Positions 2,881 through 38,927 of a stretch of 40,587 nucleotides of DNA are shown here, one piece after another. The DNA is taken from the IMG/VR virus record IMGVR_UViG_3300006753_000017, positions 1 through 40,587 of that record; one strand, given 5' to 3'. The position numbers and the translations under genes were made by a program. The DNA is from a virus. Below the pieces are notes generated by a model that did no database searches, had not been told where the DNA came from, and saw only the letters and a list, made by a program, of their open reading frames with translations. The stretch's first letter is position 1. Each line of letters starts with the position of its first letter.

Positions 2881-3104
2881 TACGCCACCTCCGCGTGCCA
2901 CTCCAAGTGGCGTTGCTGTGACGACCGTACTTCGCGTACATCGCCTTTCACTTCAATCACATCGGTTCCTATTGCTTCCAGTTTCGCTTGGTTCAGCGCA
3001 TGTTGTTCCGTGTTTTCCCGCACAGTTTTGCGTACCAGATTGAACAGGCCAGTCACTATCGCTGCTGCTGTTGCGCCGATTGCTCCGACCCATTCGATAC
3101 CCAT
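2880..3104 (-). CDS. Holin-like small membrane protein, 74 aa
   Basis: The N-terminus is one hydrophobic segment (about residues 5-24, VGAIGATAAAIVTGLFNLV), followed by basic residues RKTVR and a long polar helix with coiled-coil character (about 30-70). One N-terminal membrane span plus a soluble helix resembles the XhlA-type layout of lysis-associated membrane proteins. The start ATG overlaps the stop of the S74 fibre gene (TAATG). The endolysin lies far away at 28655-29404 beside another small membrane protein, so the assignment as holin is uncertain; a membrane-anchored tail accessory protein is the alternative. Confidence 0.55.
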   Translation of the reverse strand: MGIEWVGAIGATAAAIVTGLFNLVRKTVRENTEQHALNQAKLEAIGTDVIEVKGDVREVRSSQQRHLEWHAEVA

Positions 3105-13933: not shown

Positions 13934-14386
13934 TCAAGACACCGCCCTAAGACCAACAACCTCAGACTCCAAAGCATCAGCCAACTCAGAATCAGACATA
14001 CCAGCCACCTCACGCGCATCATCAACAACCAAACGCCGCTTCGGCGTAAACTTCTCCACATACTGCAAATACAAAGACGCAGCCTTAGTATCCCCCGCCG
14101 CAGCCCGCTGCCAAAGAGCATCTACGACGCTCTGAACCCTTTCAGGGTTAACGTTCAATTCGGCAGCGCGCCGATCCCATTCACGAATGAATCGTGGATC
14201 ACGCTTGATCCGCCGAATAGAATCCTCATGGAGATCATTCTCCGCAGCCCAGTCGCGTTGCGTAGACGGCGCACGCTCTGGCCCCTGTAGCAACCAATCC
14301 AACAACGTACCCCACAGAGCAGGCATCACCTTCGTACCTGTGTCTACGTCTGTTTTCCAGCCTTTGCCGCCACCGTTTTGAGCCAT
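13934..14386 (-). CDS. Terminase small subunit, 150 aa
   Basis: The start at ATG 14386 (MAQNGGGKGW) is preceded by GAAAGGGG; the frame is open upstream, but that part lies in the hairpin-rich leader and reads as non-coding. The core (STQRDWAAENDLHEDSIRRI and following) is a helix-turn-helix of the phBC6A51-type small terminase, followed by a helical oligomerisation part (DALWQRAAAGDTKAASLYLQYV). It is the first gene of the late operon, upstream of the ATPase and nuclease chains. It would select the packaging site on the DNA. Confidence 0.82.
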   Translation of the reverse strand: MAQNGGGKGWKTDVDTGTKVMPALWGTLLDWLLQGPERAPSTQRDWAAENDLHEDSIRRIKRDPRFIREWDRRAAELNVNPERVQSVVDALWQRAAAGDTKAASLYLQYVEKFTPKRRLVVDDAREVAGMSDSELADALESEVVGLRAVS

Positions 14387-14416
14387 ATGAAACCCCTTTC
14401 CTGATTGTAAGCGCAG

Positions 14417-14464
14417 GTGTCCCAAACGGGCATTGTACCAACCCAATGAACAAAAATGGGACAC
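14417..14464. promoter_or_regulatory. Nested inverted repeats upstream of the late operon
   Basis: GTGTCCCA (14417-14424) and TGGGACAC (14457-14464) form an 8-bp inverted repeat. Inside it is a second pair, CATTG (14431-14435) and CAATG (14444-14448). A TACAAT hexamer on the minus strand lies within it and could be a -10 element for the late operon, but no good -35 is visible. The symmetry suggests an operator for a regulator of late transcription. Confidence 0.4.
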
Positions 14465-14482
14465 TTCAACCCATAAGTACTT

Positions 14483-14541
14483 GGTACTGAGTAAACATTC
14501 CCCGTCGCCTCCCAGCGACGGGGAATGGTACTGAGTAAACA
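14483..14541. repeat. Direct repeat flanking a 13-bp hairpin
   Basis: GGTACTGAGTAAACA occurs at 14483-14497 and 14527-14541. Between and overlapping the copies is a perfect 13-bp hairpin (14496-14527; arm CATTCCCCGTCGC, loop 6 nt). The inverted form of the repeat (TTTACTCAGTACC) recurs at 22489-22501 before the nuclease gene. The repeats may be binding sites for a phage regulator or part of a small RNA ending at the terminator 14566-14591. Confidence 0.65.
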
Positions 14542-14565
14542 ACCAATAACGCATACAAGCGCACA

Positions 14566-14591
14566 AACCCCCCACAGGGGGTTCTTTTTTT
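14566..14591 (+). terminator. Rightward intrinsic terminator
   Basis: A 7-bp stem (AACCCCC with GGGGGTT, loop CACA) is followed by C and seven T on the plus strand, a textbook Rho-independent terminator. No plus-strand gene precedes it, so it would end either a short RNA begun near 14450-14480 or antisense read-through coming around the circle from the early block. Confidence 0.75.
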
Positions 14592-14619
14592 GCACAATCT
14601 GCCCCTCCATATCTATACA
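14590..14619 (+). promoter_or_regulatory. Candidate early promoter
   Basis: TTGCAC (14590-14595) and TATACA (14614-14619) are separated by 18 bp, a weak match to a sigma-70 promoter, directly after the terminator U-tract. If used, the early mRNA would carry a leader of about 650 nt containing the whole hairpin array. This is pattern-matching only. Confidence 0.25.
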
Positions 14620-14635
14620 TATGCATGTGCGCGCC

Positions 14636-15272
14636 CCGTACCCCCCAAGGGGGGGTACGGCACCCTCCACGGCCCCTATGGGCCGTGGTCCGTCGGTCGG
14701 CGGGGGGAACAAGCACCGTAGGTGCTTGAACTAGTTACTAAACCTCTGGTTTAGTACGGGAAACAGGCCGAATGAAACTTGCAACGTAGTTGCAACTGCG
14801 GAATCGTCACCGAACGTAGTTCGGACTGCTGGAATCAACACCAACCGTAGGTTGGTGTACGCAGGCGAGGCTGGCTGGTTTCTGGCAATCTCCGCTTACA
14901 ACTATGTTGTAAGCGGTGATTGGGGTCTGGTTTGGTTGGTTGCTTTGCTCAACTATGTTGAGCAAAGCAACCAGTTTTGGCACTCTCTCCAACCAATCTA
15001 TGATTGGTTGGAGAGAGTGGTTGGCGGCTTTGTCGTTGTTCTCATAACCCTAAAGGGTTATGAGAACAACGGTGATTCGGCTTGGTTTGGATTCTCGTCG
15101 TACAAATCGTAGATTTGTACGACGAGGCTGGTTCTTCTGATTTCCCCTTCTTCGAAGGGGAAATCAGAAGAACCAATTGTACTGCTTCCCCCTAAAGGGG
15201 GAAGCAGTATTCTCCTTGGTGGTATCTTCTCATCACCCTAAAGGGTGATGATAAGAAGATACCACCAAGGAG
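14636..15272 (+). repeat. Array of fifteen consecutive hairpins
   Basis: Hairpins lie at 14636-14660, 14667-14688, 14710-14728, 14736-14756, 14779-14795, 14810-14824, 14838-14858, 14892-14916, 14937-14973, 14981-15019, 15034-15071, 15094-15126, 15129-15175, 15180-15209 and 15212-15272. The first carries one bulged G and the last a 3-nt bulge; the rest are perfect. From 14710 on, stem lengths are 8, 9, 7, 6, 9, 11, 17, 18, 18, 15, 22, 14 and 28 bp, and the longest lie nearest the gene. Loops are GTA (five times), TAT (three), CCCTAAAGGG-type (three), TCT and TTC. Arms differ from hairpin to hairpin, while some spacers repeat (CGAGGCTGG twice; GGTGATT...TGGTTTGG twice). Confidence 0.95.
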
Positions 15273-15280
15273 GAAAGCCA
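15212..15280 (+). promoter_or_regulatory. Hairpin sequestering the ribosome-binding site of the first early gene
   Basis: A 19-bp lower stem (15212-15230 with 15254-15272), a 3-nt bulge (15251-15253) and a 9-bp upper stem form the last hairpin of the array. The Shine-Dalgarno sequence AAGGAGG (15267-15273) lies in the lower stem and the start codon is at 15281. Translation would need the stem to be opened, processed or bypassed. Confidence 0.75.
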
Positions 15281-15736
15281 ATGAAGACCCTGACCATCAC
15301 CGAAGCCTCGGCTTCGGCTATTGTTCGGCTTGCCGAACAGATCGTGGAAAGCGGCATCTTCGATGCCGTTGAGAACACGGTCACGGTTCCTTCGGAACCG
15401 TCGGTTGCCGTTCCTGTGTTTGAGGTTCCCTCAAACAAGGTTGTGGAGCCTTCGGCTCCAGCGGTTGCCACCGCAACTGCCAAGCCTTCGGCTTGGAAGT
15501 TGGAGAAAGCGGCAAGGTCAGCGAAGAACAAGAGCATTAATGCTAGCATTAATGCTCGTCTTGCCAATGCCACCAAGGCAAACGACATCGGAGATGTCGA
15601 CAAGGTACTCGCTTCCCTTCGGGAAGCGATGGAGTTGGTGCCGACGCACCTTGACAAGCAAGGGAACCTTGCTTGGAAAGGTACGGTCGATCGCATCGTC
15701 GCCAAGGCCCAGTCCCTTGGACTGGCTACGGCGTAG
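15281..15736 (+). CDS. First early gene, hairpin-encoded protein, 151 aa
   Basis: The start is ATG 15281 with AAGGAGG eight bases upstream. The product is unrecognised. Residues 1-30 are helical (LTITEASASAIVRLAEQIV). Residues 35-75 are a Pro/Val/Ala linker with PSEP, PSAP and PSAW segments. Residues 75-150 are basic and helical (KLEKAARSAKNKS, SINASINAR, DKVLASLREAMELVP). The coding DNA is packed with at least eleven perfect hairpins or palindromes of 7-9 bp stems or longer, and the PS(E/A)P segments are the translation of their TTC loops. The protein may be a small nucleic-acid-binding early protein; the RNA itself could be the functional product. Confidence 0.75.
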   Translation: MKTLTITEASASAIVRLAEQIVESGIFDAVENTVTVPSEPSVAVPVFEVPSNKVVEPSAPAVATATAKPSAWKLEKAARSAKNKSINASINARLANATKANDIGDVDKVLASLREAMELVPTHLDKQGNLAWKGTVDRIVAKAQSLGLATA

Positions 15737-15803
15737 CGTCTGCGGCGGGGGAGTCTTCGACTCCCCCGCTGTGGTGCGGGGCGGGAGTCTTCGACTCCCG
15801 CCC
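15300..15803 (+). repeat. Hairpin series inside and after the first early gene
   Basis: Perfect hairpins lie at 15300-15317, 15322-15339, 15352-15368, 15383-15401, 15417-15437, 15444-15460, 15480-15496, 15583-15599, 15610-15628, 15655-15675, 15709-15725, 15745-15769 and 15779-15803. A 26-nt perfect palindrome (15532-15557) contains AGCATTAATGCT twice. Most loops are 3 nt and mainly TTC. Loops fall in different codon phases. The last two stems (11 bp each, GC-rich) lie beyond the stop codon and may act as a terminator or 3'-end stabiliser, although no U-tract follows. Confidence 0.93.
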
Positions 15804-15882
15804 TGTACTGCGCTTGTGTACGCTGTGTGCATGGGTGCGTGTAGAGTTCTTGATTAGTGGTTGAGTGCGCAGGAGGTGCGTA

Positions 15883-16191
15883 GTGTTTGGTTCAGCGTTG
15901 TTTGATTGTCCTAACATGCTTGGGCGTGTGTTGTCGGCTTTGCATCCTGAGCGGTACACGCTTGGTGAGGTTGAGTTGTTGTCCATGCTTGGGTACGAGG
16001 CGGGGCGTGAGTTGGATTGGGAGGATTGGCCTGATGCGGAGGAGTTGCGTGAGATCAGGAATCCTAGGGCGTCTGTTGCGTGGAGTGAGGATTTGTATGG
16101 TACGCATACATGGTCGCTTGAGGAGTGGCGGTTTTTGGATGCGATTGGGTTGACCTATGGTCATAACGGGAGGATGGTGTATTGTGCTTGA
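15883..16191 (+). CDS. Hypothetical early protein, 102 aa
   Basis: The start is GTG 15883, preceded by AGGAGG with 6 nt between. The protein is acidic, with segments HPERYTLGEVELLSMLGYEAG and DWPDAEELREIRNPRASVAW, mixed helix and no membrane span or known motif. It begins a chain of small early genes in which stops and starts overlap. This is typical of phage early regions that encode host-takeover proteins, but no specific role can be assigned. Confidence 0.7.
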   Translation: MFGSALFDCPNMLGRVLSALHPERYTLGEVELLSMLGYEAGRELDWEDWPDAEELREIRNPRASVAWSEDLYGTHTWSLEEWRFLDAIGLTYGHNGRMVYCA

Positions 16192-16399
16192 GTATGAGGG
16201 TCACGACTGTGACGATGAGGGTTGTGAGGCTAGTGCGGAGGCGTGGGAGGCTGTCCACTTCCCTCATGGTCGCAAGGGCGTGGATGAGTGGGACTCTCTC
16301 TCCCCTCTCTCTCATCAATCGAAGATTGATGATGAGAGAGAGGGAGAGAGGTTTCCGATGATTGACGGTTTCCGCGATGCACAGGAGGTGCTGAGATGA
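16184..16399 (+). CDS. Hypothetical acidic early protein, 71 aa
   Basis: The start chosen is GTG 16184, with GGGAGGA upstream and an 8-nt overlap with the preceding gene; a longer reading from 16157 is possible. The N-terminal half is rich in Asp, Glu, Cys and His (EGHDCDDEGCEASAEAWEAVHFPHG). The second half is encoded by a long hairpin (16294-16350), giving SLSPLSHQSKIDDEREGERF. The end overlaps the next start by ATGA. The function is unknown; the region may be constrained by RNA structure as much as by protein. Confidence 0.6.
   Translation: MLEYEGHDCDDEGCEASAEAWEAVHFPHGRKGVDEWDSLSPLSHQSKIDDEREGERFPMIDGFRDAQEVLR
16294..16350 (+). repeat. Long coding hairpin with TC/GA arms
   Basis: A stem of about 24 bp with small bulges closes a GAA loop (16321-16323). 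The inner 9-bp stem (TCATCAATC with its complement) is followed by a 3-nt bulge on the right arm, as in the hairpin before the first early gene. The outer part is CCCTCTCTCTC with its complement. It lies inside gene 16184-16399. Confidence 0.85.
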
Positions 16400-16713
16400 T
16401 TGACGTAACGTGTGTGGATGCGAATGAGGGCTTGTATGCCATGTTCATGGATGATGAGGGTGTTGATACGTTGGTAGGTGCGCTGGTGTGGTTGGCGGAT
16501 GCGGTAGCGGATAGGACGCCGCTCCCGTCTACGCTGAATCGCATCTGGGGGGAGTTGGAGGATGTGCAGGAGTGGGCACAGACGCGTATGGAGGAGATGA
16601 TGGATGAACATGGGGAAGGAACGGACTGTGCGTGTCCTGTCTGTGTGGAGATGGCAGAGGTGCACAATGCGGCAATGGATGACAATGAAGAACAGCAGAT
16701 AGGCTCGTTGTAG
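16396..16713 (+). CDS. Hypothetical acidic early protein, 105 aa
   Basis: ATG 16396 overlaps the upstream stop (ATGA) and has AGGAGG at the correct distance. The protein is strongly acidic and helical (ANEGLYAMFMDDEGVDTLVG, EDVQEWAQTRMEEMMDEHG), with a Cys-rich patch TDCACPVCVE that could bind a metal. It has no recognised family. A small acidic protein in the early block could mimic DNA or bind a host enzyme; this is speculative. Confidence 0.7.
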   Translation: MIDVTCVDANEGLYAMFMDDEGVDTLVGALVWLADAVADRTPLPSTLNRIWGELEDVQEWAQTRMEEMMDEHGEGTDCACPVCVEMAEVHNAAMDDNEEQQIGSL

Positions 16714-16967
16714 CGAGGGTAAATAGGCTTTAGGCTGCAAGCGGCACCCGTGTGGTGCGTGGCATCGGGTTACCTACGGTTGTAGACGTAGGTGCGCAGG
16801 GCTACATCCTTGTGTGGGAACTGAACGAGTGCTCATGGTTCCTAAGCCCGTGTAAGTCCCTGAAAGGAAACGTAAACACAGGTAGTGTGTGTAGGAGTTG
16901 CCTGTCCCTGCGCATAGCGTTGCCTGTCCAAAAAGCGGTAGGGTTTGTCCCCCGCAACAGGCGCCAC

Positions 16968-17047
16968 GGGGGTGGTTCTGGTTTCGACGCAAGTGAAAGC
17001 CGCATGTCGGACGCTTGTGGACAGGGGTTCGATTCCCCTCACCTCCA
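16968..17047 (+). ncRNA. Mini-tmRNA: tRNA-like domain without mRNA-like domain
   Basis: The 5' end (GGGGGUG at 16968-16974) pairs with CACCUCC (17040-17046) in a 7-bp acceptor stem containing G3-U70, the alanine identity pair, followed by discriminator A 17047. Next to the 5' arm is UUCUGGUUUCGACG, closely matching the conserved D-loop part of tmRNA. The T arm (AGGGG UUCGAUU CCCCU, 17023-17039) is standard, preceded by GUGGAC as in tmRNA. In true tmRNA about 250-300 nt separate the two ends; here only about 30 nt do, and the resume codon, tag reading frame and pseudoknots are absent. CCA is not encoded. CGCAAG/CUUGUG (about 16988-17019) may form a shortened P2 stem. Confidence 0.75.
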
Positions 17048-17156
17048 CTTGGAGGGTGTACGTTCACCGTGGTAGTTGCAGCGGGAACTTAGCCTAGCCG
17101 TGCGTGAAGTATGCCTTTATGGATGAAGCGCCGAAATTGAGCGGTTAGCCGTGTTG

Positions 17157-17817: not shown

Positions 17818-17857
17818 CCCATCTTCTCTCTCTCTCTCTTGAGAGAGAGAAGATGGG
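17818..17857 (+). terminator. 17-bp hairpin between early genes
   Basis: A perfect 17-bp stem (arm CCCATCTTCTCTCTCTC) closes a 6-nt loop, starting 14 nt after the stop of the 125-aa gene. There is no U-tract after it, so mRNA processing or stabilisation is as likely as termination. The TC/GA-repeat arm resembles those of the hairpins at 16294-16350 and 22457-22488. Confidence 0.7.
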
Positions 17858-22408: not shown

Positions 22409-22488
22409 GTACCACGCCGACACAAACGAGCCAGTAGGCTCAGTGGTACCCAGTACCTCCTCCCCCTCTCTTCAGAGAGGGGGAGGAG
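22409..22488 (+). promoter_or_regulatory. Structured leader of the nuclease gene
   Basis: Three dyads precede the gene at 22515: GTACCAC/GTGGTAC (22409-22415 and 22443-22449), an inner hairpin GAGCC-AGTA-GGCTC (22428-22441), and a perfect 15-bp hairpin 22457-22488 (arm CTCCTCCCCCTCTCT). The left arm also contains CCTCCT, able to pair with the Shine-Dalgarno AGGAGG at 22505-22510, so an alternative fold could hide the start. Confidence 0.6.
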
Positions 22489-22501
22489 TTTACTCAGTAC
22501 C
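22489..22501 (-). promoter_or_regulatory. Third copy of the GGTACTGAGTAAA motif, inverted
   Basis: TTTACTCAGTACC is the reverse complement of the 13-nt core repeated at 14483 and 14527. It lies between the 15-bp hairpin and the Shine-Dalgarno sequence of the nuclease gene. In all three places a GC-rich perfect hairpin adjoins the motif. Confidence 0.6.
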
Positions 22502-29423: not shown

Positions 29424-32400
29424 CTACGGGTTTTCGTTTTGGCTTTCGCGTATTAACTGGCGCATGTCTTGCAACTCTTCTACCTCTTTCCAATACGCAG
29501 CATCAATAACGCGCTGCTGCTCTTCAAGCGTATTGGTACGCAAACCCATACCGAACGCGAAACTCATCCACGTTGACAATGTACGTTGCTGATACCTCTC
29601 CTCCGACGGAAACAGCCGTCGCATGTCCGTGAACGTGGGCAACAATTGCCCCATCGTGTGTAATTCATAATCGCGCATCAACCAAACATCGTTTTGTTTC
29701 TCAGCCAACCCAAGGGTGTCCAACATCGGCATCAACAACGGAATGTTTCGATACGCAGTGGGTACCTGCTGATACCGACCATCGAACGAATACCCTTTCC
29801 ATAAATTCTGCTTGGCTTTCCACTCATACGGTGCCTTGATCAACGGTGTAATCTGAGTACCCACACTACCCAACATCACCTGAATACGATCCGTAACCGA
29901 CATGTCCTTGTCAAACGCCAACGCAGGATCAATCAACTCCAACGGAGTCTTGAACGGCAAGTCAGGCAGAACAAACATGTTCTGACCCTTATACTTGAAC
30001 GGCAACTGAATCGCACCCTGCCGAATAAAATACGGAGGCACAATCGCCGCCTTTTCCTGCCCCATCTCAATGTTGCGCTTTGCCTTCAAATACATCGACA
30101 TCTTCGCAGGGTTCTTCCCAACCTGCTCAATCATCAACGGTAGCGCGTGCTTCGTCCACGTATAGAACGGAATAAGACGCTTGATGACCTTGGACTCAAA
30201 GGCCGACAGGTCACTATAGTCGAAGTGCCATTTCGTAATCGCATCGAAAGCATCGTCAACGGTGCCGTTGCTATGCTTCAAGACATCGAATCCCAACACG
30301 CCGCGTACATAGGTTTCAGTTCCAACACCGACGTTGCGCGACAGCCGCAATGGAGCGTTCCGCGAATTGAACGGATTGACCGTACCCCACGCACGACGAA
30401 ACCCGCCTTGCTCCAACGGAGACTGTAGAAACTCTGCCGCAACCTGACCACTGGAACCACCTAGAATGTTACCCTCATACATCTCGCGTACAATCGCAAC
30501 ATCGTCAGCATTGACATTGCCCCAAACGCCACGCTTCTTCATCGAAGCCTTCATCGAATTAGCCCTACGAGTCATCCCCTGCTCAACCGCAAGGTCATAC
30601 TGGAACTTCCAATACGCACGCTGAAACTGGCGATAACTACTGAACTTCACACCATGCAAGAAATTCATAAACGTTGCAGAAAAGAAGTTACGCATATGGA
30701 AACCGGGCTTGGCAATCATGTAGCCTTTAAGCAGGTTGTGAACCTTGTCATAGTGGCGTAGGAATTCACCCCATCCGCCCTGCGCATTGAAGCGTGTCAC
30801 GGCAGTCATGGCTTCGACCATTGCTTCTGGTCCTTGCGAGTTAGACCCGAAGGCTTTGTACCCTGACATCCATAGTTGCTCTAGGACTTCTTCGCGGTCT
30901 GCGAAGTCGCGGAGCGGGAACCAGAACTCGTCGTCAGAAACGAACTTTTCAAACGGTCCTTCAGCCTTCCCCGCTCGGATCTTTGCTATCCCTTCAAGAC
31001 CTGCCTGCAAATCTTTCCCTACCTCTGACACCTCCGAAGGTGGGAATCCTACCTCCCCGAAAATGCCATCCATTATTCTAGCCTGATGTCTGTAATCAGA
31101 CGGTCTTGCGCCTGCCTTGACGGTTTTTGGCCCTTGGATAGACCACGCCAGCGCGTTGCTGATAGACTGATCTACTTGGTTCACGGTAACCATGTGTATG
31201 TGTGACACCGCTACTGCTATATCTTTAAATATCTCTGCCAACTCGTCGTCAGGGGTCGCCGCCGCATTCGCCCGCAACGCTTCCAACTGTTCCTGCGCCT
31301 TTACCGCATTAGCGACGCGCTCATCTGCCAAGTCCAGTGCAGCATCAGCGCGGTCGAAGTGGTCCCTTGCCCCGTCCCATTGTCCCTTGAGAGCGTCTAC
31401 TTGGTTACGTGCGGTTTGCAATTCTGAACGCGACAGAGCAAGTGCTTTGTTGGTAGCGTCCCGATCCAACAACACTTCAGCCTTTTCTTGCTGCAAGGCT
31501 GCCAACAAATCGGGCTGTTGTGCCTCGTCAAACTCACGGGGCACAAACTGAGCGTTCGCCATTTCCTCGTATTCTCTCAGGAACTGTTCCGCGTTCATAA
31601 AGACATCATGTCCCGTGTCGCCCATCGCACCTGTCTGCCCTCTGAACTTATCCAATTCTGATAGGAGGCCACCAGCGTTTACAGTGTCAGGCATAAGTGC
31701 GCGCGGATTTGTCAACATGAAATTAGACAATATAGGTGCGTCCGCGTGGCCCGCAGCAGTATTCCAACGGGCTCTTTCTTCGTTGAACCAAACAGAAACA
31801 GAGTACCCGTTGTTGTCACTAGCCAAACTGCCCGAAGACAACGACCGCCTGTACGCCTCCAAGAAACGAGCGTGCGTACGAACAGCACCCCTCAATTGTT
31901 CCGTTTCGTACGGCGAACGCGATGGCGCGGACCACCCCTGTTGATCAGGAGGAACGCGAGAAGGAGTCTCCGCTGTTGCCCACCCCCTCGTCCTCCCAGT
32001 ATGCAAAGGACCGCCATGAGACTGCACTGTTGCGCTTGGCTTGAACGTTGCCCTCGCCGCCATCTCACCCGTTTCACGGTGCTGTGCCGCAGTGAACCTA
32101 TGCGCATAGTTGCCCATTTTGACGAAAATATTATGATCTGCGGCTCCTGCAATCGTCTCCATTGGTCCAAGGAGGGAATTAAGAACCTGAGCGTTTTCCG
32201 CTTCAAACCGATTGCCGAAACCTGAACCAACCTTTGACGAATCGTTGCTTATCGAAGCAATGAATGTCAATACGTCCTCCTGAAGTTGCGCCTTGGGTTG
32301 CGCGGCAAGGTTGTCCAAACCCTTTATCAACATGTCGTAGCGAGACAGATCATCCCCCGCCGCTTCCGCAGTCTGGAGTAGCGCCTGCAACGGATTCTCC

Positions 32401-35400
32401 CCTAAAGGCACTGAAACGCCATTGTGCATTGCGTGCAACGCAGACCTGATATTCCCATCGTATGCGCTCTTTGTGTTAAGCCATCCGATGAACGTCATCT
32501 TGTGACGCCATGACATGCCTTCAGGGAAAACTCCGCGAGCCTCCAACGCGGTTACCGTATCAACCACCTTTGCCCCCTGCTTAATCTTTGTGCTGGCTGC
32601 CCAACCATCTTCTTCAATCGTGCTAATAGCCCTACCCGCACGCCAATCATGCACCAACCCTTCCCACAAGTCAGGGTCCACATCGCGGGCACGTTCATAC
32701 ATGTCAAACAGCATGTCGAACTGACCATGTTCCGTAGTAGCGTGACTGTATTGACCCTCGGTTCCGAAGATACCAGCAGCGTTCCCTTCTCCGCTAAGAA
32801 GATTGTCAATCTTGCCTTGAAGCCCTTGCAACTTAGTCAACTGCTCAGGAACTCTAGGATCAAGGCCGTCGGCCTGCTTCACAATAGCCTCCGCTGCACG
32901 CAGACGGTCATGTGCAGGAAGCCCATACACTTTGATACTTGCCGCACCATGCGGCAAGTTGACCCTGAGTTGATGATTGTACCTACCCCCAATCACCATG
33001 TCGTACACGACTGCCATGATGTTCGCATTGGGAGCAGACTGATCTAACCAATTAGCACTGTTGGTACCTAAAAGCCAATGCGGAGCGAAATAGCCACCAT
33101 GACCTGATGCATGGTTCAGCCTCAACAACTGTCTGTGTACCTTCGGGTCGCTTGTGGGAACAGTGTGACCCGAAGAGGTTCCTGCTTTAACCCGTCCAAT
33201 AAAGTAATGAGTTTGTTCAGCACCATGAAACACCTCGGGGACAAACCCGACAAGTTCAACATCAAGGCCCGTTTCCTCATACGCCTCGCGTACAGCAACC
33301 TGCATAGGGTTCTCATCAGCCATACCTGCGGTACGAGTCTGTGGCCCCTTGGAATGCGTCCAACGATTACCCCCGTTGATCTGGCCTGTAGTCGCATCGT
33401 TAGTGGGCATACGCAAATAGACAGAATCTACGCCATCCATAATGACAACACCGTAACTACCCGCCGCTTCCTCCCACGGCACCTCGTCGGCTGTCTTCGG
33501 CAAGAACTCTGTCGCCCGTATGGCAAATGTTTCGGGCGCGGATTTATAGCCCCCTTCTGCGCTCCATGCCACTTCCTCCTGCGACCCTTGTTCAACTTTC
33601 CACACAGCGTAGTCATCGGGACCGACGTTCTCCCTACCAAAGTTGTCAACGGTGTCGACAATCTCAGGGTCTTTCCAAAATGGGTGATCTGGTGGCGGCA
33701 ACGGTTCTTCAGGAGAAGGGATACTCCCAGCAGGAGTCTCCTGCCCCTTCATCAACATCTGCGCCTCTATCAGATCATCTCCCGACAACTGCGCCATCCA
33801 GTCTTCGACATCGTCCGCCTGCTTCGGCCCTGCCTCCGCAGCCACAAACGTTGTCTCATCAATTTCGCTTCTGAACATCCCGTGCATCAAGGTAGGATCG
33901 TCAATGTCTAAAGCGTGGCGGGCTGCCAACATGCGTTCCAGTATCCCGCTTTCCCGCAAATCCCAGACATGCCTCACAACGTCTACGTCGCGGGCCTGCG
34001 CACCAACGTTCTCAGCGTTGCGACCCAACTCGTCAATTGCATCTGTAATCGTAAACGATTCCAACGCTTGACTTTCATGTACTCCACTCGTCCCGCTCTT
34101 GGGGGAAAGCCACGCCCGCAAACCCTGCTCCTCCGACGTTCGCTGCGTCGCTCCATAAGTGCCTGTAAGCGCCTCATCAATCTGTGCGGGACCAACCCCC
34201 GCCCGTGCAAGGGCTTCCCCGATCAGATCGTCGCCCGTGTTGTACGTCAAACCGAAGTCTTCGGCCATCTTCTGAGTGCGTGTTTCCAACCAATCAACAA
34301 ACATGTGAATATCTTCTTCAGGGGCATCTGGCAACTGCTTTCGCACCCACTTGGCCCAGCCCCCATTTGCGGTACGTGCAGTCAACAGGCGGTCAATTTG
34401 CCGCTTCAACTCCCCCGCCATGCCGACTCCGCCTTCAACATCATCGAATGTAGAACGAAACTGCCGCCACATGCTGATAGTCTTCGCCTGATTTCTCTCA
34501 AACTTCAAATCAAAGAAACCTGCGATTTCGTCAACGTTCCTATAGTCATATGATCCACCCTTAAGTTCTCCTTGTGCCCGATAGTGAAACGCTGATCCGT
34601 TGTCCAACCGAAAAACTTCACCCGTCATCTTGTTGACACCGATGTTGTCACCTGCATATCCGACCGCATCAAGGTTCCCGATGAGCATGTCTGTTGCTAT
34701 TTGGTCGCCAAGAAGATCAGACATAGGTGTGTGCACAGTACGGTCAAGCGTTTCAGGAGTGATGTAATCGTGGACATCGCTATAGATTGCGCCGTAAGGA
34801 TGTTCGGAGTACGTTTGAACGATACGGTACGTGCCGTCTGCCATCTTCTCCCGATACTGGTGGGTCATTGGCACATGTATACCTTGAACGAGTTCGTCTT
34901 CCCAATCGGTGGCCTTCCATATGCCCGCAAACTGGCCCTCATCGACCTGACCGTACCAACTCGCAGGGGCAGAACCAGTAACGATTTCGTTGTAGAGGCG
35001 ATCAGCGAGAACTTCGCCGCTTACACGGTGGCGTGCCGCATCAGCGGTCACCCCTGAAGGGTATGCTCCCGCAACATCTACATATCTTTTAACGTAGAAA
35101 CGTTTAATGGTTCCATCAGCCAACGTGTACTTAATCTTGTACCCTTCGTTGGAGCCGCCCTTCACCCCCAAGTCAGAACCAGCATCTTCAGCAAAAGCCA
35201 TTCCCCCGCTCCCCTGCCAACCGTCAATAATCTCCCCATCAGCAAACAATCTACTGATGGGGATGTCGTCTGTCGCAAACGGCATCTGAGAACCGTGGGG
35301 GGCACGTATGATTTCGTTTTGGAACCGCATGAGGTAAGCGACATCAGAGATGGTCAAATTTTCATAGATCAACCCATCGGGTGTCGTCGCCGTAATTACA

Positions 35401-38400
35401 GGCGCATCAGCCAACTGTGTTTCCAAGTGCTGCGCCCGCGCCCGTAAGGAAATCTTCGCAGTTTCTATGTACTGGTCAAGGGCCAACCCGTCGGGGATCG
35501 TGGTCACCGCCCGCGAATCCCCGAAAACGCCATAATACGTGGAAGCCGCATTTACGAATTCAGAATCTTTCATCGCCGTCGGCCATATGTCATCCCACAA
35601 CATATCGCTGGATGGGTCGTTCGCTTGCTTCCACAATTCGTCCAACTTGGTAAGCATCAGCCTCTTTGAATCCGTAACATTCATCGGAGAAGGAATGCTC
35701 CCCACCAGTTGATCAGGGCCAAGGTGCTGAATCCCCTTCTCCAACAGTTCAACCGACCTCTTCACCTGATCGGTCAAAATTGTTCTAGCGGACTCAACCT
35801 GTGACAGCGACGACGCAATCCCCGTAGCGTCCTTAGCCCTTACGTGCATTTCCAAGCCAAGCCAACTCGCCAACCCACTACTATCTAAGTCCCCGACAAT
35901 CGCTTCAACGTTTCCAAGTATCTCAGTTGCTTCATCAGAGTTGACAACTCTGTCCCCGATCTTCAACTCCCACCCGACAACATCAGAAGCCTGCTCGTAC
36001 GCGACGTTTCCAGCCTCATCAACAACGCCAACCTCCGCTGGAGCAACAGTATCGCGGATAGGTGTGAAGCCCTTCTTTCCGTCGCGTGCAGCCGCCATCG
36101 CATATTCGTCTACGCTTCCCCCGACGTACTCATCGAACGAACCAACAAACTTTTCAAACGCTTTCCGATCTCCAAAGACAGTGTATATTTTGTCTTCCAA
36201 AGTCAACGCTGCATAAGTTGCCGCCCGCAACCTGCTCAACTCCAATTCAAACATGGGCTTCGACTTGTACAAATCGTCCAGCACCTTGACGATTTCTTGA
36301 ACCTCACGCTCCATCTCCACAAGGCGCTCAAACGGAGCGCCCTCCATGTCTACACGCAGCCCCCGTTCCCTACCCTCAAGATCAAGAATCCGTTTCTCAA
36401 TAAACATGACCTCCTGTTCAAGCAACAGGAACTCTTGCGCTTTTACGTCATGTGCTTCTACGGCCCGCTTGTACGATTCGTCAGCCATTCGCAGTGTCTC
36501 TCTGGCCTCCACTATCGAGTCCGCTGCATCAGCCTGATCTTTACCAAAGCGTTCTATCGCTACCTTCAACTTGTGATCCAAGTCTGTCTCAGCACGAAGC
36601 AGCGTGGACGCCGCTGAACGAACATCCACGACAGCATCAGTCATTCTGAGGTCAGGGATGTGAACGGCCATTGCCGTACGGTCAAAGAAGACGCCCTGCT
36701 TCTTCATTAGCGTGTCAGTGAATACTTCACCCACACGCTTGGAAATTGCGTCAACGTACACGCTGAGGGCCACCCGCAGGTCTTCGTCAAACAGAGCGTA
36801 GGAGATGCCATGTCGCTCCATGATGTCAGCGATCTGCTTCTCAACGTCTTGAGCGATCTCACCGCTGGGCATCTCCGAACCCGCCTTATACAAGTCTTCC
36901 CCTAAGAAGTCGTGCTGGCGTCCTGACGCACGCACGGCTGCGTCTGCTTCAGCAGGTGACGCACCCTTGGCGACCTGTGCATCAACCAAGAAATCAAATT
37001 CTTCTTTAGAAATATACGAACGTGTCTGTTCAAAGCCACTCTCCTTATATGCATGGCCTTTGTGCGACCTGTTGACAAGCCCCCTACCTTTGGCCTCCAA
37101 ATAGTTACGTGCCTCTTCGGACAAAACGCGAGGAACGTAATCGGAAGAAAGACCAAGGAAATTCTGCCCCGCACGTTCGTTAGCCATTTGACGCAAATCT
37201 CGCATCAACAAACGTCCCTTGTCCGTCAACTCTTGACCAACCCTCGCGGCAGCGTCCTCGCTGCCCGCGATGGCATGGTACAAATCAGCACTATTGGCAC
37301 CCGCCACATCGGCTTCCTTGAAAAAGGCATCCACCTTCCTCAACAGTTCCTGCCGTGTGGTGCGCCCCGCCATGTCGCCCCGTCCAGCAGCGTGCAAAAA
37401 CGCTTTCATGTGATGAACGCCTACAGCGTCACCCTCCTGCATCGCCGTCTTCATCAACTGGCGTATTTCAGGAGCGCGACCACCACGCTTCATCCAACCA
37501 ATCAGTCCACCGTAACCCGTTCCGACCTTCTCCTGTGTTGCTTTGCCAGCCATTTGGGCAGCCTTGGCAACTGGGCCTTTGCCAATAATGTTGCGGCCAA
37601 AGAAGGCAGTACGGGCAGCCTGTGGCACACCACGTACCCACGTACCAATAAACGGTGCCCGCGTGTTAGACCCCCAAAACTTTAACCCAATCGGCTGTTG
37701 CAGTTTGTGGCGGAATATTGCCTTACCGACTCTACCCGTGAATGGAACCCTCCACCCAAATGCAAATGTCAGGTCTTCAACCTCGTCGGCAACAATCCAC
37801 GGATTCGTATAGCCCCTAGTTGCACCTGCTGTTACATCGTCAACGGCGCGAGTCGCTATCTGCGACGGTGAGCGCAGCGAGTTATCCAACTGGCTAGCGG
37901 CAATATGGCGGGCTGCGATACGCATTTCATCGTCGGTGACCGCAGTCGCTCCCCGCCGAATTGCACGGGCACCCGCATCATACAACTTTGTAATATCATC
38001 AATCAAAGCATTATCTAATGTCATAATGAGTGAAGTATCAAGCGGATCGGTCGGACCGTGAACACCACCCAACCTGTTCAAATCCAACTCAACGACATCA
38101 TCAGAAACCCGCGTAACAAAGTTATCGGTTCCCTTTACAAGATCGTCAGCAACCCCACGCATGACATTATCGTCCAACAATCTAGTGTTTCGGAATAACC
38201 CACCGAACACCCTGCCAGCATCATCGCCTACATGGGAAATAATCGCCTTACGGACAGCGTGACCACCGATAATACGGGCACCTTCGCCCGTCAATTTAGC
38301 CCCGATACCGATTGCCTTGCCAACCAAGCCAAGCCAAGTCAACGGATCAAGCGCAACATCACCCGCAAAGCCAGCCAGCCGTGCCCACTTCAAATTCTCA

Positions 38401-38927
38401 GGTTCCTGCCAAACGTCGAAATCGGCAAGCATCTCACCAAACGTATAGGTGCCCCCAATCTTGTCCCAAGCATCCCCCCAACTCAGACCACCCTCTTCGG
38501 GACGCTTCCTGACAACATTCTCCACAAGCAAACGAGTACCCGTAACCGCAACAGTTAGAGGCTTCATCAAATACTCTAACGCAGTAGCAAACGGACCCTC
38601 CGTCATCGCCTGACCTGCGTCGTAGGCGAGTTTTTCATGCCACGGCAACTGTTCAATCGCAGTATCATGCTGCGCTTGCCGTATCCACTCCTGAACCCTT
38701 AGGGTTGGTTCCCAACCCGAATGTGCAACTGGCCCCTCAAGCCCCAAAACCCGCTGCAACGCATTCGTTGTCGTTGGCTCTCGGTACCTTCCAGCAGACG
38801 GCTTAATCGTTGGGGGAGTAACGCGCTTACTTTTGATCTTCGGCTTGATGTCAGGCGGAGCCAGAGCCTCCGCCGCCCGAAGACGAACATTGGGAGGACC
38901 AGCAGCCTGACTCGGCGGGCGAGCCAT
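29424..38927 (-). CDS. Giant multidomain virion-type protein, 3167 aa
   Basis: This gene takes up nearly a quarter of the genome. The N-terminal 750 residues are helical with basic stretches (RVTPPTIKPSAGRYREPTT; SHKGHAYKESGFEQ). Residues about 775-890 and 2470-2560 are long coiled coils. Residues about 1225-1480 resemble an atypical kinase fold: FYVKRYV, a helix with EVLADRLY, DMLIGNLDAVGYAGDN and VFRLDNGS. Residues about 1830-1960 contain a Nudix-type core (REAYEETGL). Residues 2735-2960 (GFHMRNFFSATFMNFLHG; FYTWTKHALPLMIEQVGKNP) resemble the C-terminus of large podovirus internal or ejection proteins. Located between the repeat-rich gene and the endolysin, it is probably packaged in the virion and ejected with the DNA. 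Confidence 0.85.
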   Translation of the reverse strand: MARPPSQAAGPPNVRLRAAEALAPPDIKPKIKSKRVTPPTIKPSAGRYREPTTTNALQRVLGLEGPVAHSGWEPTLRVQEWIRQAQHDTAIEQLPWHEKLAYDAGQAMTEGPFATALEYLMKPLTVAVTGTRLLVENVVRKRPEEGGLSWGDAWDKIGGTYTFGEMLADFDVWQEPENLKWARLAGFAGDVALDPLTWLGLVGKAIGIGAKLTGEGARIIGGHAVRKAIISHVGDDAGRVFGGLFRNTRLLDDNVMRGVADDLVKGTDNFVTRVSDDVVELDLNRLGGVHGPTDPLDTSLIMTLDNALIDDITKLYDAGARAIRRGATAVTDDEMRIAARHIAASQLDNSLRSPSQIATRAVDDVTAGATRGYTNPWIVADEVEDLTFAFGWRVPFTGRVGKAIFRHKLQQPIGLKFWGSNTRAPFIGTWVRGVPQAARTAFFGRNIIGKGPVAKAAQMAGKATQEKVGTGYGGLIGWMKRGGRAPEIRQLMKTAMQEGDAVGVHHMKAFLHAAGRGDMAGRTTRQELLRKVDAFFKEADVAGANSADLYHAIAGSEDAAARVGQELTDKGRLLMRDLRQMANERAGQNFLGLSSDYVPRVLSEEARNYLEAKGRGLVNRSHKGHAYKESGFEQTRSYISKEEFDFLVDAQVAKGASPAEADAAVRASGRQHDFLGEDLYKAGSEMPSGEIAQDVEKQIADIMERHGISYALFDEDLRVALSVYVDAISKRVGEVFTDTLMKKQGVFFDRTAMAVHIPDLRMTDAVVDVRSAASTLLRAETDLDHKLKVAIERFGKDQADAADSIVEARETLRMADESYKRAVEAHDVKAQEFLLLEQEVMFIEKRILDLEGRERGLRVDMEGAPFERLVEMEREVQEIVKVLDDLYKSKPMFELELSRLRAATYAALTLEDKIYTVFGDRKAFEKFVGSFDEYVGGSVDEYAMAAARDGKKGFTPIRDTVAPAEVGVVDEAGNVAYEQASDVVGWELKIGDRVVNSDEATEILGNVEAIVGDLDSSGLASWLGLEMHVRAKDATGIASSLSQVESARTILTDQVKRSVELLEKGIQHLGPDQLVGSIPSPMNVTDSKRLMLTKLDELWKQANDPSSDMLWDDIWPTAMKDSEFVNAASTYYGVFGDSRAVTTIPDGLALDQYIETAKISLRARAQHLETQLADAPVITATTPDGLIYENLTISDVAYLMRFQNEIIRAPHGSQMPFATDDIPISRLFADGEIIDGWQGSGGMAFAEDAGSDLGVKGGSNEGYKIKYTLADGTIKRFYVKRYVDVAGAYPSGVTADAARHRVSGEVLADRLYNEIVTGSAPASWYGQVDEGQFAGIWKATDWEDELVQGIHVPMTHQYREKMADGTYRIVQTYSEHPYGAIYSDVHDYITPETLDRTVHTPMSDLLGDQIATDMLIGNLDAVGYAGDNIGVNKMTGEVFRLDNGSAFHYRAQGELKGGSYDYRNVDEIAGFFDLKFERNQAKTISMWRQFRSTFDDVEGGVGMAGELKRQIDRLLTARTANGGWAKWVRKQLPDAPEEDIHMFVDWLETRTQKMAEDFGLTYNTGDDLIGEALARAGVGPAQIDEALTGTYGATQRTSEEQGLRAWLSPKSGTSGVHESQALESFTITDAIDELGRNAENVGAQARDVDVVRHVWDLRESGILERMLAARHALDIDDPTLMHGMFRSEIDETTFVAAEAGPKQADDVEDWMAQLSGDDLIEAQMLMKGQETPAGSIPSPEEPLPPPDHPFWKDPEIVDTVDNFGRENVGPDDYAVWKVEQGSQEEVAWSAEGGYKSAPETFAIRATEFLPKTADEVPWEEAAGSYGVVIMDGVDSVYLRMPTNDATTGQINGGNRWTHSKGPQTRTAGMADENPMQVAVREAYEETGLDVELVGFVPEVFHGAEQTHYFIGRVKAGTSSGHTVPTSDPKVHRQLLRLNHASGHGGYFAPHWLLGTNSANWLDQSAPNANIMAVVYDMVIGGRYNHQLRVNLPHGAASIKVYGLPAHDRLRAAEAIVKQADGLDPRVPEQLTKLQGLQGKIDNLLSGEGNAAGIFGTEGQYSHATTEHGQFDMLFDMYERARDVDPDLWEGLVHDWRAGRAISTIEEDGWAASTKIKQGAKVVDTVTALEARGVFPEGMSWRHKMTFIGWLNTKSAYDGNIRSALHAMHNGVSVPLGENPLQALLQTAEAAGDDLSRYDMLIKGLDNLAAQPKAQLQEDVLTFIASISNDSSKVGSGFGNRFEAENAQVLNSLLGPMETIAGAADHNIFVKMGNYAHRFTAAQHRETGEMAARATFKPSATVQSHGGPLHTGRTRGWATAETPSRVPPDQQGWSAPSRSPYETEQLRGAVRTHARFLEAYRRSLSSGSLASDNNGYSVSVWFNEERARWNTAAGHADAPILSNFMLTNPRALMPDTVNAGGLLSELDKFRGQTGAMGDTGHDVFMNAEQFLREYEEMANAQFVPREFDEAQQPDLLAALQQEKAEVLLDRDATNKALALSRSELQTARNQVDALKGQWDGARDHFDRADAALDLADERVANAVKAQEQLEALRANAAATPDDELAEIFKDIAVAVSHIHMVTVNQVDQSISNALAWSIQGPKTVKAGARPSDYRHQARIMDGIFGEVGFPPSEVSEVGKDLQAGLEGIAKIRAGKAEGPFEKFVSDDEFWFPLRDFADREEVLEQLWMSGYKAFGSNSQGPEAMVEAMTAVTRFNAQGGWGEFLRHYDKVHNLLKGYMIAKPGFHMRNFFSATFMNFLHGVKFSSYRQFQRAYWKFQYDLAVEQGMTRRANSMKASMKKRGVWGNVNADDVAIVREMYEGNILGGSSGQVAAEFLQSPLEQGGFRRAWGTVNPFNSRNAPLRLSRNVGVGTETYVRGVLGFDVLKHSNGTVDDAFDAITKWHFDYSDLSAFESKVIKRLIPFYTWTKHALPLMIEQVGKNPAKMSMYLKAKRNIEMGQEKAAIVPPYFIRQGAIQLPFKYKGQNMFVLPDLPFKTPLELIDPALAFDKDMSVTDRIQVMLGSVGTQITPLIKAPYEWKAKQNLWKGYSFDGRYQQVPTAYRNIPLLMPMLDTLGLAEKQNDVWLMRDYELHTMGQLLPTFTDMRRLFPSEERYQQRTLSTWMSFAFGMGLRTNTLEEQQRVIDAAYWKEVEELQDMRQLIRESQNENP
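33210..33440 (-). other. Nudix-like segment in the giant protein
   Basis: The order GMADENPMQVAV followed by REAYEETGLDV has the RExxEExG core of the Nudix box. The spacing between the first Gly and the next Glu is shorter than in the canonical Gx5E pattern, so this is Nudix-like rather than certain. Nudix enzymes cleave nucleoside diphosphates linked to another moiety, such as NAD or ADP-ribose. A virion-delivered Nudix could act on host nucleotides at the start of infection. Confidence 0.6.
34490..35250 (-). other. Kinase-like segment in the giant protein
   Basis: Residues about 1225-1480 hold, in order, a Gly-rich segment (DGWQGSGGM), a strand with Lys (RFYVKRYV), a helix with Glu (GEVLADRLY), a catalytic-loop-like DMLIGNLDAVGYAGDN and a metal-binding-like FRLDNGS. 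This order resembles HipA/Fam20-type atypical kinases (K, E, D-x-x-x-x-N-x-D...N, then DNG). Catalytic activity is not proven from sequence; the resemblance is by motif order only. Confidence 0.45.

Follow-up and report, generated by a model that had tools for sequence, protein, structure and literature searches.

Introduction

Some RNA viruses carry ordered RNA structure on the scale of the genome. The locus described here resembles them in that folding is apparently kept without sequence conservation, also through coding sequence, but differs in that it belongs to a DNA phage, consists of discrete perfect hairpins and occupies the first 1.2 kb of one putative transcript. Leaders that mask the Shine-Dalgarno sequence offer a second comparison: the last hairpin here is likewise predicted to pair AAGGAG, at seven loci. 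However, in this case up to 14 further hairpins precede it, a hairpin-filled coding sequence follows it, and no conserved sequence, ligand pocket or Rfam match accompanies it.

Two further systems act at the DNA level. The promoters of the N4 virion RNA polymerase are three DNA hairpins with short stems and conserved stem and loop bases (PMC4496689). The present locus shares with them the 3-nt C(GNA)G-type loops and the placement of hairpins upstream of early genes; unlike them, it has approximately 30 hairpins of variable sequence, with stems of up to 22–28 bp. In quasi-palindrome mutagenesis, template switching between inverted repeats homogenizes the arms and inverts the spacer (PMC8604942; PMC8794818), and template switching by itself can suffice to preserve perfect arms that diverge less than the sequence around them (PMC8604942). 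Arm homogenization, double-sided multi-base changes and exact loop inversion are all observed here, but those systems show scattered single events whereas here about 30 adjacent hairpins form one promoter-proximal block in several lineages. A preliminary description of this locus, made from the sequence, knew of no phage element with such a layout, and we found none in the open-access literature.

Organization of the control region

The window is the whole stretch of DNA analysed, positions 1–40,587 of IMG/VR record IMGVR_UViG_3300006753_000017 (40,587 nt, 40.6 kb), from an uncultivated, probably marine phage. Scanning of its proteins revealed a terminase, portal, capsid, DnaB-like helicase and AEP-type primase. 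A 3167-aa protein encoded at 29424–38927 on the minus strand gave a weak NUDIX match as its sole match. Relatives are present on two MAG contigs, assigned to Acidimicrobiaceae TMED189 and to a Euryarchaeota bin; mis-binning is possible, and these contigs were left aside as pointers to the host. Late genes run leftward from a small-terminase-like gene at 13934–14386 and early genes run rightward, with the first start at 15281. The cumulative GC-skew minimum lies at 14–15 kb, where it is confounded with divergent transcription; it is the sole pointer to the single-strand replication origin that a preliminary description of the locus listed among possible roles. Between the late and early genes the order is the TGGTACTGAGTAAACA repeats with their hairpin, a terminator-like hairpin, the motif TATCTATACAT and the hairpin array. 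The parts are as follows.

14482–14541, unstranded: two TGGTACTGAGTAAACA direct repeats flanking a 13-bp hairpin (14496–14527), conserved upstream of the promoter motif
14566–14596, plus: intrinsic-terminator-like hairpin with a run of seven T, from sequence
14610–14620, plus: TATCTATACAT, promoter-like motif, one copy in one orientation, conserved in relatives
14636–14660, plus: hairpin 1, C-run stem, 11 bp
14667–14688, plus: hairpin 2, 9 bp; a different 9-bp hairpin stands here in L009 and L010
14710–14728, plus: hairpin 3, 8 bp, loop GTA (TTC and ATA in relatives)
14736–14756, plus: hairpin 4, 9 bp
14779–14795, plus: hairpin 5, 7 bp
14810–14824, plus: hairpin 6, 6 bp, apex GAACGTAGTTC; the GTA loop is TAC (inverted) in L009 and L010
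14838–14858, plus: hairpin 7, 9 bp
14892–14916, plus: hairpin 8, 11 bp (17 bp if one mismatch is allowed)
14937–14973, plus: hairpin 9, 17 bp; loop GTA in L009, TAC in L010
14981–15019, plus: hairpin 10, 18 bp
15034–15071, plus: hairpin 11, 17 bp with a TAAA loop (18 bp with a 2-nt loop); loop inverted to TTTA in L010
15094–15126, plus: hairpin 12, 15 bp; L009 and L010 have different hairpins of 17 bp and 18 bp
15129–15175, plus: hairpin 13, 22 bp, replaced in relatives
15180–15209, plus: hairpin 14, 13–14 bp
15212–15272, plus: hairpin 15, 18 + 9 bp with a 3-nt TAA bulge; Shine-Dalgarno AAGGAG in the 3' arm
15281–15736, plus: EARLY1, first early gene, 151 aa, with 12 coding hairpins, most having a C(TTC)G loop
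15745–15769, plus: GC-rich hairpin, 11 bp, directly 3' of the EARLY1 stop codon
15779–15803, plus: second GC-rich hairpin, 11 bp, end of the fold signal

The TGGTACTGAGTAAACA repeat element is conserved upstream of the promoter motif and lies outside the array. The motif GTACTNAGTA occurs in the window at 14484–14493, 14528–14537 and 22491–22500, three copies against 0.05 expected, and looks like a candidate binding site for a phage regulator; TACTNAGTA, which is related to GTACTNAGTA, is incorporated in hairpin arms of the L102, L180 and L244 arrays. The terminator-like hairpin may insulate the region against rightward transcription from upstream, and TATCTATACAT is a putative early rightward promoter. 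The array begins approximately 15 nt 3' of this motif.

Two RNA elements were noted further into the early region. A Pistol self-cleaving ribozyme scores above the Rfam cut-off (51–53 bits) at 16703–16764 (plus strand) of the window, at 3085–3146 of L009 and at 144–206 of L091; it would sit in the early transcript of this lineage, 3' of the hairpin block. About 200 nt 3' of the ribozyme is an 83-nt tmRNA-like element (window 16968–17050, plus strand; L009 3252–3334; L098 1680–1762, minus strand). It matches both ends of the tmRNA model (70–81 bits), lacks the entire mRNA-like middle, and the third pair of its acceptor stem is apparently G-U. This element is perhaps a tRNA-like RNA freed by the ribozyme.

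Extent and strength of the fold

All fifteen hairpins reported for 14636–15272 in the preliminary description were located, as were the spacer repeats that it named. Its list of loops (GTA, TAT, TTC, TCT) is accurate but incomplete, as TAAA also occurs. The arms do differ from one hairpin to the next, yet some are duplicated within one array; in L010 the arm TGGTTGCTTTACTCAAC is found twice. In total 41 perfect hairpins with a stem of 8 bp or more occur in the 40.6 kb, and 22 of these fall within 14496–16332.

The recommended comparison with dinucleotide shuffles gave a folding energy for 14600–15300 of -403 kcal/mol against -231 ± 7 (z -25.5), and the opposite strand folds at z -25.1. Values of about -25 on both strands exclude chance as the source of the array. 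Windows of 150 nt within the array have z of -3.3 to -12.2, compared with a mean of -0.9 in the rest of the window. The end first proposed for the feature, 15272, proved too early: both local folding and codon shuffling carry it through the open reading frame at 15281–15736 to 15803. Local fold z remains at -3.7 to -7.8 across EARLY1 and the two GC-rich hairpins behind it and reaches zero at 15826. The hairpin-rich block, 14636–15803, is thus about 1.2 kb long and comprises the leader, the first gene and the 3' hairpins. One more hairpin follows at about 16298–16352; like those at 17818–17857 and 22457–22488 among other early genes, it is long, perfect and CT/GA-rich, and these possibly share the origin of the array.

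The array does not correspond to a known repeat or RNA family. We rejected an array of direct repeats or mobile elements because the arms differ, and comparison with REP/BIME, CRISPR, attC and other repeat families revealed no common unit, each arm matching its own partner. Terminators or attenuators in series were likewise rejected: a U tract follows 1 of the 15 array hairpins on the plus strand, about the shuffled expectation. Rfam 15, searched in both modes, returned nothing above the gathering cut-off in 14380–16400, and the sub-threshold matches were mostly to microRNA-type hairpins.

Distribution among related phages

Searching viral contigs with the promoter motif and with four proteins (capsid, small terminase, large terminase and EARLY1) yielded approximately 350 loci. 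The longer form of the motif, TATCTATACATA, is present in exactly one copy in each of 96 of 244 loci and always reads toward EARLY1. Directly behind the motif nearly all relatives have the C-run hairpin, whether or not an array follows, and hairpin frequency declines with distance downstream of the motif. Taking a leader array as dense when it has 5 or more stems of ≥12 bp, we found such arrays in at least six lineages (those of the window, L098, L102, L180, L224 and L244), most of which share no arm sequence with one another. The majority of 117 distinct control regions lack an array, and most relatives with the same promoter motif have none in the leader. An artefact of amplification or assembly is unlikely since the same array is found in contigs from different metagenomes (L098, L100 and L097; L224 and L225).

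No second array was found elsewhere in approximately 3 Mb of related phage DNA. A DNA search of 50,697 phage records with 14000–17000 as the query gave zero matches, and the array is absent from MW202803 (Manatee Spring), which among named relatives is the closest in capsid and terminase.

Hairpins within the EARLY1 coding sequence

The coding hairpins of EARLY1 comprise 95 paired bp, compared with 6.1 ± 6.2 after synonymous-codon shuffling (z 14.3); in the identical test other genes gave z of -0.3 to 5.5. The hairpins extend into the conserved C-terminal domain. Many relatives' EARLY1 genes have z of 5–19, with 20 of 40 distinct genes above 5. Coding hairpins are commoner among relatives than leader arrays, and some relatives coat the gene only; conversely, the L098 lineage has a leader array without coding hairpins.

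Some genomes have two copies of the gene. There, paralogs distal to the promoter have few or no hairpins (z -0.5 to 2.6), as illustrated by the proximal and distal copies of L035 (15.3 versus -0.5) and L232 (5.3 versus -0.4), while in L095 and L207, each with two copies, neither is hairpin-coated. That the proximal copy is coated and the distal one is not indicates that the feature tracks position behind the promoter motif and not the protein. The EARLY1 family (40 distinct members) has no match in Pfam or PHROG. The protein has a low-complexity linker and, with low confidence, TPR-like C-terminal helices; a profile search against the PDB matched only designed TPR proteins, via one short helix pair, which indicates no function.

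Hairpin change between close relatives

Arms that drift without compensation, a pattern that would speak against the earlier proposal that folding itself is selected, were not seen: when 12 orthologous hairpins were compared between the window, L009 and L010, all arm changes were double-sided (7, 3 and 3) and none was single-sided. This supports the view that folding, and not sequence, is selected or actively maintained. The sequences of the relatives differ while folding is kept, and so it seems to be the fold, not the letters, that is preserved. The paired changes include C-G to G-C and G-C to T-A swaps. Hairpins 6, 9, 11 and 15 show exact reverse complementation of the loop between arms that are unchanged or nearly so, and a TTTA to TAAA loop difference separates L224 from L356. 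Hairpins 2, 12 and 13 have their places taken by other perfect hairpins in relatives. Among the three close relatives approximately 5% of arm sites, 16–23% of spacer sites and 40–49% of loop sites diverge, figures that leave out hairpins replaced outright and in which hairpin 6 is placed one base off, with negligible effect; for comparison, fourfold sites of the terminase diverge by 10–30%. The slow divergence of the arms is not proof of selection, because template switching itself conserves arms (PMC8604942).

In six unrelated arrays, 14 of 935 pairs are non-Watson-Crick and only 1 of these is G-U; stem lengths cluster at 16–18 bp. Pair swaps that cannot pass via G-U, together with the loop inversions, constitute a footprint of template switching. 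We consider it quite likely, judging from these sequence comparisons, that the hairpins are generated by template switching during replication, and this origin is better supported than any function. It would account for the perfect arms, the missing G-U pairs, the inverted loops and the continuation into the first gene. As template switching yields paired changes in one step, covariation at this locus is not proof of RNA function.

Loop composition and possible signals at the RNA level

C(GNA)G triloops form very stable DNA mini-hairpins. Among 250 distinct triloop hairpins, 130 are C(GNA)G or its complement, against about 31 expected. Neither orientation of the array loops predominates (TAAA 9, TTTA 8; GNA 63, TNC 67), the loop-closing pair is C-G in 127 of 165, and GNRA and UNCG tetraloops, which are stable in RNA, are nearly missing. 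The 5' arms are pyrimidine-rich and array features are strand-symmetric. Taken with the template-switch footprint, the DNA-stable loops make it most likely that the generating process acts at the DNA level.

Other features point to RNA. On the plus strand the spacers are rich in G and T and poor in A (T 317, G 258, C 160, A 130). In the window, L009, L010, L180, L224, L244 and L232 the Shine-Dalgarno sequence is predicted to pair within the last hairpin, and the paired AAGGAG lies 11–16 nt 5' of the start codon; outside the three close relatives the stems that pair it are dissimilar. In L052, L035, L212, L209 and L191 it is only partly paired or not paired. Near early-gene start sites of relatives, a hairpin apex with the sequence GAACGNAGTGA occurs at 16 distinct sense sites and 0 antisense sites, and this confinement to the sense strand points to RNA. 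Its flanking stems covary: all 10 pairs that vary have both bases altered, and the score is 0.94 against 0.24 when shuffled, in twelve rows picked by motif and clear stem. The motif is absent from the window and has no Rfam match; in this group of phages it is a candidate for a novel cis-acting RNA motif. Since these sense-only hairpins also lack G-U pairs, the G-U test is not decisive in discriminating RNA from DNA. On long covarying stems the motif was observed in L324 (3961–3971), L251, L191, L185, L207, L317 (two copies), L351, L348, L192, L074, L312, L232 and others. The sequence GAACGNAGUGA forms a hairpin in relatives.

Discussion

The limits of the block, the Shine-Dalgarno pairing and the sense-only GAACGNAGTGA hairpins, set against the counter-evidence, lead us to rank as most likely, though still tentatively, that 14636–15803 is a densely folded early mRNA whose hairpins template switching would create and mend, and whose fold would shield the transcript and gate translation. 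Transcription would begin near 14625–14630 and read through the array, polymerase template switching during replication would create the hairpins and keep them perfect, and the last hairpin would gate translation of EARLY1. The least certain step is that the fold would be retained to protect the early mRNA by leaving few unpaired entry points for RNase or Rho. The block is bounded by the promoter-like motif on one side and by the hairpins behind the EARLY1 stop codon on the other; with the predicted masking of the ribosome binding site, this strengthens the structured early leader first suggested in the preliminary description. Against a folded mRNA, the loops have neither a strand preference nor RNA-type tetraloops, unlike RNA-selected loops, most relatives with the same motif have no leader array, and L098 has no coding hairpins.

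These observations bear on other explanations. The main rival, which we hold to be somewhat less likely, is that the array is a mutational by-product: the stretch immediately behind the early promoter, perhaps an R-loop or a start of replication, would be a template-switch hotspot where perfect hairpins form and loops invert more quickly than point mutations can disrupt them, and the leader and EARLY1 linker would merely tolerate the result. Loop inversions, double-sided changes including transversional pair swaps, the missing G-U pairs and the enrichment of C(GNA)G triloops on either strand would all follow, as would the small sequence conservation, the patchy presence, and the coating of the proximal EARLY1 copy with the distal paralog spared. 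The GC-skew minimum falls at the region, and RNA-DNA hybrids are known to provoke template-switch-type mutations in highly transcribed DNA (PMC3820800). However, the arms diverge 3–5 times more slowly than the spacers, beyond what unbiased arm-to-arm copying predicts, the coding hairpins are held against codon shuffling even in the conserved C-terminal domain, and neither recurrent Shine-Dalgarno pairing nor a sense-only apical motif is expected from mutation alone. The strand symmetry of loop closing, 5' arms and loop orientation would suit an element acting as DNA, with hairpins or cruciforms serving as a replication start, as sites for structure-specific phage proteins or as N4-like hairpin promoters; the phage encodes a primase as well as a DnaB-like helicase, and the GNA-type triloops are as in N4 promoters (PMC4496689). 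We regard such an element as improbable: the block follows a transcription unit instead of occupying both sides of the intergenic region, its stems offer no conserved sequence for a specific protein to read, the GC-rich loop-proximal arms are poor cruciform seeds, and GAACGNAGTGA in relatives is sense-only. N4-type promoters in particular were rejected, as the array stems are unrelated and lack conserved stem and loop bases, and no single-subunit RNA polymerase was detected in the 3167-aa protein or the other scanned proteins. A decoy RNA, whose many stable hairpins of 16–18 bp would sequester a host RNase or a protein that binds double strands, or would guard against RNA-targeting defence, could explain why this stem length recurs across unrelated arrays and why structure is maintained without sequence. 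We judge it very unlikely, as it has no known partner, would not require overlap with a Shine-Dalgarno or coding sequence, and is missing from the majority of relatives.

Returning to the folded early mRNA, it is possible, although we hold this with some doubt, that the block represents a phage element of a new class, in which perfect hairpins cover the first kilobase of an early transcript, are selected for folding alone and are continuously rebuilt by template switching in replication. If so, sequence would turn over within a lineage while the fold persists, possibly allowing escape from sequence-specific defence while the early mRNA stays RNase-resistant. It would be a natural case of inherited nucleic-acid shape rather than sequence, with paired changes arising by template switching often enough to be seen when close relatives are compared. 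The array would then be a dense test bed for the origin and evolution of long perfect stems, and it carries a warning that covariation, commonly taken as proof of RNA function, can stem from a DNA copying process. For the phage itself, the fold would be a sequence-free means to protect or gate its first mRNA.
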